Virus record (IMG/VR): IMGVR_UViG_3300007520_000039
Span: 1 to 38,671 of that record
Strand: one strand, 5' to 3'
Origin: a virus
DNA: 38,671 nucleotides
Shown here: piece by piece, positions 38,538 to 38,609 of the stretch
Position numbering within the stretch: position 1 is the stretch's first letter
Layout of the letters: every line of letters starts with the position of its first letter
Made by a program: the position numbers and the translations under genes
Notes under the pieces: generated by a model
Databases searched by the model: none
What the model was told of the DNA's origin: nothing
Seen by the model: the letters and a program-made list of their open reading frames with translations, nothing else

Positions 38538-38609
38538 CTACCTACTACAAATATACATTGTCACTTCGAAACCGAAGCGCATATCTGAGTATTCAGGTTT
38601 ACTCCATAT
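38538..38609 (-). CDS. pqqA: PqqA-like 23-residue peptide (apparent ATA start)
   Basis: The frame from ATA 38609 to TAG 38538 encodes 23 residues that align end to end, without gaps, with PqqA, the precursor of the cofactor PQQ. Conserved features: Trp2, Lys4-Pro5, Tyr7, Asp9, Arg11, Gly13, the block FEVTMY with Glu15 and Tyr19 (the two residues joined to make PQQ), and a C-terminal Arg23. Length and numbering equal those of Klebsiella PqqA as I remember it. No ATG/GTG/TTG starts the frame; AAAGGA lies ten bases before the ATA, whose position equals the normal Met. No PqqB-E gene is in the window. Too short for standard gene callers. Confidence 0.7.
   Translation of the reverse strand: [23 protein letters not shown]

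Follow-up and report, generated by a model that had tools for sequence, protein, structure and literature searches.

PQQ, the cofactor of methanol dehydrogenase, originates from a ribosomal peptide, PqqA. The radical-SAM enzyme PqqE, together with the chaperone PqqD, joins a Glu and a Tyr of this peptide, and further Pqq enzymes complete the cofactor, such that PqqA is consumed one for one. Methylotrophs of the groups OM43, LD28 and Methylophaga play an important part in methanol oxidation in natural waters. Phages of other hosts carry auxiliary metabolic genes, an example being cyanophage psbA. A viral PqqA was already reported in 2020 in a methylophage contig from Lake Baikal, population VP_266 (PMC7678222), and viral pqqA, pqqD and pqqE have been listed in reservoir sediments (PMC13188868). 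Phage PqqA as such is already known, and the locus described here adds a new likely host type.

This locus lies at one end of a viral DNA of 38,671 nucleotides (IMG/VR record IMGVR_UViG_3300007520_000039), the whole of which we call the window. It shares with VP_266 a phage-encoded PqqA, a predicted methylotroph phage as its carrier and the same proposed role, but the T4-like phage of VP_266 also encodes methanol dehydrogenase and has a predicted host in the Methylophilaceae rather than in Methylophaga. Like the window, the phages P19250A, Venkman, MEP301, MEP401, MEP402 and Melnitz have a pqqA without other pqq genes, preceded by a Shine-Dalgarno site and often followed by a hairpin. Their copies, however, start with ATG, encode Methylophilaceae-type peptides and reside in different phage lineages. 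The peptide of Methylophaga itself is identical to that of the window at 20 of the 22 residues after the first, whereas the window copy is phage-borne, has ATA for ATG, and has Ser at positions 3 and 22. As with cyanophage psbA, a host-type gene would sustain the main energy reaction of the host during infection, except that the window gene encodes a consumable cofactor precursor and not an enzyme or a reaction-centre protein.

When the minus strand is translated from 38609 to 38538, it reads as a PqqA-type peptide followed by TAG. The frame and its surroundings comprise the following features.

38538-38609, minus strand: pqqA, 23 sense codons plus a TAG stop, with the first codon ATA at 38609-38607
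38201-38476, minus strand: gene for a 91-amino-acid protein of unknown function, the next gene downstream of pqqA; it adjoins pqqA in the relative too, at 49% identity
38500-38528, minus strand: 12-pair hairpin directly 3′ of the pqqA stop (-19.5 kcal/mol for the 60 bases)
38620-38625, minus strand: Shine-Dalgarno-like AAAGGA, 10 bases before the ATA; other viral copies have AAGGA or AGGAG before ATG
38642-38669, minus strand: weak 7-pair hairpin upstream of pqqA

An initial annotation of this DNA had described a PqqA-like peptide here. It had the position and residues right, but omitted the strand and made no mention of the ATA first codon; the corresponding plus-strand frame contains a stop and lacks the PqqA pattern. 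Every residue that it listed is found in the peptide (W2, K4-P5, D9, R11, G13, E15-V-T-M-Y19 and R23), and the Glu-x-x-x-Tyr pair that is turned into PQQ is intact as E15 and Y19. A model score, which it had proposed as a check, is significant for both family models, with 40.4 bits against Pfam PF08042 (cut-off 21.1) and 48.5 bits against the NCBI PqqA equivalog model TIGR02107 (cut-off 20). Its judgement that a chance match is very unlikely also holds, given that a six-frame search of the record with the PF08042 profile gave an E value of 1.2e-10 and that the same search found matches in 0 of 14 control genomes. No PHROGs family was found for the peptide. On the strength of these sequence comparisons, the frame at 38538-38609 is a genuine phage pqqA gene and not a product of chance.

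No close DNA relatives of the window were found in the phage collection, and single-sequence scans of IMG/VR with the neighbouring 91- and 214-amino-acid proteins likewise yielded none. A codon-pattern scan of IMG/VR for PqqA retrieved a locus, L227, that is part of a phage record of 58,046 bases. This record has most of the window genes in the same order, and most of the shared proteins are 49-82% identical (DNA polymerase 76%, replicative helicase 82%, several tail proteins 55-73%, and the genes just downstream of pqqA 49-66%). Its pqqA occupies the same locus as the window copy, is internal to the record and begins with a normal ATG. The two peptides agree at 20 of 22 residues, with both changes being between Ser and Thr. 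Over the 66 in-frame bases compared, the DNA is 82% identical, with 9 of the 12 differences at third codon positions (dN 0.078, dS 1.74, dN/dS ~0.04), and 200,000 random draws of 12 substitutions produced no set as conservative as that observed. The sequences flanking the two copies have no obvious similarity. Selection on the frame, another check proposed in the initial annotation, is by this comparison purifying, acting on the window pqqA at the protein level. A metabolic gene of the host type lies here in a genuine phage genome and is kept in a syntenic 58-kb relative, as is expected of an auxiliary metabolic gene.

Among the loci retrieved, the closest PqqA form to that of the window belongs to Methylophaga and its family, apart from a few records labelled only to phylum or class, and the bacterial genomes with the queried 11-residue PqqA forms are mostly methylotrophs. 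The right half of the window matches DNA in 47 of the 57 genomes of the Methylophaga family; these matches fall almost exclusively at pqqA and are mostly at 80-91% identity, the best being up to 91% over 64 bases. The pqqA match is weaker in 150 Methylophilaceae genomes, where it appears in 19 at E 1e-4, a stricter limit than that used for the Methylophaga family. Because the peptides match and pqqA is nearly the sole DNA that the right half of the window has in common with the Methylophaga family, a Methylophaga-like marine methylotroph is the likely host, an assignment we make with moderate confidence. A contig of this family also ends in a phage tail module akin to that of the window (40-56% protein identity) and joined to chromosomal genes, and this end is a probable prophage border. 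The module lies at 42-49.4 kb of the contig (L369-L370; contig C7 of genome G035), the rest of which holds polysaccharide genes and an apparent methanol dehydrogenase fragment. Its minor tail protein is 55-56% identical to that of the window, against at most about 48% in the best phage records listed, although the tail type is widespread, which weakens the host inference. The only CRISPR-spacer-like matches in the Methylophaga family are short and marginal.

All 24 genomes of the genus Methylophaga carry 2-9 copies of pqqA, and PqqE scores over the cut-off in 21 of the 24. Most of these copies sit on separate contigs or at a distance from one another, which makes pqqA genes away from the operon normal in this genus, and PqqA gene dosage seems to matter in such hosts. 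Up to nine copies per genome, spread over several contigs, occur in three genomes (G003, G019 and G025).

Searches of 50,697 annotated phage records with three PqqA queries each returned the same 12 records, with the caveat that diverged copies can escape tblastn when the query has 23 residues. Nine of these are phages isolated on Methylophilales, representing six phages (P19250A, Venkman, MEP301, MEP401, MEP402 and, with four isolates, Melnitz). In methylophage records the gene lies at the following positions.

KX815270 (P19250A), 28085-28153: pqqA
MT375522, 9977-10045: pqqA
MW452941, 3316-3384: pqqA
OP830906, 41902-41970: pqqA
OP830907, 43050-43118: pqqA
MZ577095, 74888-74953: pqqA

None of the nine records has a PqqA annotation; the gene is unannotated in five of the six phages, and in Melnitz an antisense ORF has been called over it. 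A pqqA gene goes unmentioned in the published descriptions of Venkman, MEP301, MEP401/402 and Melnitz. The Lake Baikal paper states that P19250A is without the auxiliary metabolic genes reported there (PMC7678222), but P19250A does carry pqqA. The other three records are one spring-water phage contig and two contigs named Acinetobacter phage MD-2021a (CAKLQF020000010 and CAKLQH020000055). We rejected the Acinetobacter matches as phage, since the contig inspected, CAKLQF020000010, evidently comes from a bacterium: it has genes for PqqB-E and polyphosphate kinase, its pqq operon lies next to ppk, and that part at least is chromosomal. The PqqA matches do not include Pelagibacter phage Hodr or Vibrio phage ICP2, the nearest relatives of MEP301 and MEP401 that infect other hosts. 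This absence argues that pqqA follows the way of life of the host and not the phage family. This tracking of host type, and the presence of pqqA in all cultured methylophages recovered from the collection, appear to be unreported in the open-access literature that we searched. The taxonomy also lists phages MEP431-434, HIM624-A and pHIMB624-A, which may lie outside the collection.

Uncultured viruses carry the gene as well. A codon pattern for GFEVTMY occurs at at least 120 IMG/VR loci, all with a proper PqqA N-terminus, and a pattern for the N-terminal half occurs at 102 loci. In the latter set, both Glu15 and Tyr19 are retained in 101 of 101 readable copies, which bears out the conservation of this pair that the initial annotation had made a further check. 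The two sets together give 222 viral loci, some of whose contigs may be common to both sets, and at least 200 IMG/VR loci have the gene. No pqqB, C, D or E was present within the examined flanks of any of the 222, compared with 21-35 of 119 bacterial pqqA loci; the viral copies are therefore not mislabelled host operons. Under a stricter sharing rule the phages fall into 33 to 53 groups, which is a rough guide, and the window groups only with its relative. A count of lineages by single linkage was rejected as too coarse. Two very large contigs with a stand-alone pqqA, of 221 kb (L161) and 289 kb (L207), are possibly jumbo phages. Overall, we lean toward the view that a stand-alone pqqA is near-obligatory in phages of PQQ-dependent methylotrophs, having been acquired repeatedly by unrelated lineages, corresponding in each case to the PqqA type of the host, and missed by annotation at 23 codons. 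Such phages would follow a strategy of donating a consumable precursor and not an enzyme.

None of PqqB-E, PqqD included, is encoded in the window, and neither the window nor its relative yielded any PQQ enzyme or methanol dehydrogenase; these must therefore come from the host. A pqqA gene usually lies with pqqBCDE, a trait that is not strictly defining and that the window copy does not have. The phage gene would give rise to a ribosomal PqqA peptide, whose Glu15 and Tyr19 would be cross-linked by host PqqE and PqqD as in the established pathway, and the other Pqq enzymes of the host would then finish PQQ. Because one PqqA is spent per PQQ, the pathway needs its substrate to be produced without pause, and extra pqqA copies would raise the precursor supply; this is the most economical reading. 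In this way the PQQ-dependent methanol dehydrogenase, the energy source of the host, would stay supplied, and methanol oxidation would go on, as the phage takes control of host expression. The window pqqA is thus best regarded as quite probably a functional auxiliary metabolic gene, one that provides the consumable precursor of PQQ to host PqqBCDE and keeps methanol dehydrogenase working during infection. Provision of extra precursor to a PQQ-making host was the first option offered by the initial annotation, and it gains support from the host-type match and from the strict association with methylotroph phages. These two observations, like the gene itself, its conservation and the selection on it, come directly from the sequences, whereas translation, modification and benefit of the peptide are inferred.

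The first codon of the window copy requires separate consideration. Its frame contains no ATG, GTG or TTG, and the ATA is at the exact position of the ATG in the relative. The other viral copies fetched, about 220 in number, have an ATG either directly before the Trp or one codon further upstream, which makes the window pqqA the sole exception among the viral copies seen. The ATA may act as a rare start codon of low efficiency, mark the onset of decay, or be an error near the end of a metagenomic contig, and the window copy may be weakly translated as a result unless the codon is an assembly error. On the 3′ side of the gene, the hairpin at 38500-38528 has no T-run and no consensus terminator was found after the window pqqA, but the relative has a consensus terminator at the matching place. 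Hairpins below -8 kcal/mol follow pqqA in 68% of viral copies, against 23% in shuffled sequence (155 distinct cases), and the window hairpin is the probable 3′ end of the pqqA transcript.

The gene might have been recently broken or weakened by a change from ATG to ATA, such that useful amounts of peptide are no longer made in this phage while relatives still make it. We regard this as possible but doubtful: ATA is the only first codon available and an in-frame ATG is present in all of the roughly 220 other viral copies, yet apart from this codon neither the coding frame nor the Shine-Dalgarno-like site is disrupted, and a single G/A difference 62 bases from the end of a metagenomic contig is a likely spot for an error too. 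The same proximity to the extreme end of the contig, along with the DNA similarity of bacterial pqqA copies, might suggest that a piece of bacterial chromosome was misjoined to a phage contig. However, the independent 58-kb phage record has pqqA at the same locus, with the same downstream genes, and there it lies in the interior; that the window copy is found at a contig end is therefore no evidence of a chimera. Moreover, DNA similarity to bacteria ends close to the borders of the ORF. We rejected the chimera on the grounds of this synteny, and host DNA is a highly improbable source of the gene.

Functions other than precursor supply are also conceivable. The initial annotation had named a decoy and a substrate of an unknown radical-SAM enzyme, for neither of which we found positive evidence. 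As a decoy or inhibitor, the phage peptide would occupy host PqqD and PqqE and lower host PQQ, and a family match alone cannot tell a substrate from a competitor. Nevertheless, viral peptides keep all residues of a working substrate, including a reactive pair whose strict retention a decoy would not require, and they are identical or nearly so to host peptides; this role is improbable. About equally improbable is processing by another radical-SAM or RiPP enzyme unrelated to PQQ. PQQ genes are absent beside viral pqqA, and a RiPP study found a PqqA-annotated family to be co-expressed with phage-defence systems (PMC11118758). Against such a role, viral pqqA is associated with PQQ-making hosts, the window peptide scores on the equivalog model and not merely on the broad family, and the hosts too have several pqqA genes spread over the genome. 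We accordingly retain precursor supply as the preferred function.

The distribution of pqqA suggests that methylotroph phages routinely prop up the methanol oxidation of their hosts. If carriage of the PQQ precursor is general among such phages, viruses would exert a widespread control over methanol oxidation, one that has been overlooked because gene callers skip genes of 23 codons. The gene could serve as a simple genetic marker in metagenomes for phages of PQQ-dependent methylotrophs, and, in phages that are already in culture, it is an auxiliary metabolic gene open to direct testing.

Elsewhere in the window, an NAD-dependent DNA ligase is split over two ORFs (33755-34597 and 34671-35639), with the adenylation and OB domains together and the BRCT part separate, and the relative has the same arrangement. 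A patatin-like phospholipase gene (14325-15173) adjoins the tail-fibre region and is conserved in the relative at 64%. Within the tail module, two neighbouring and partly overlapping ORFs (3761-4474 and 4426-4839) are similar in their second halves, an apparent tandem duplication.
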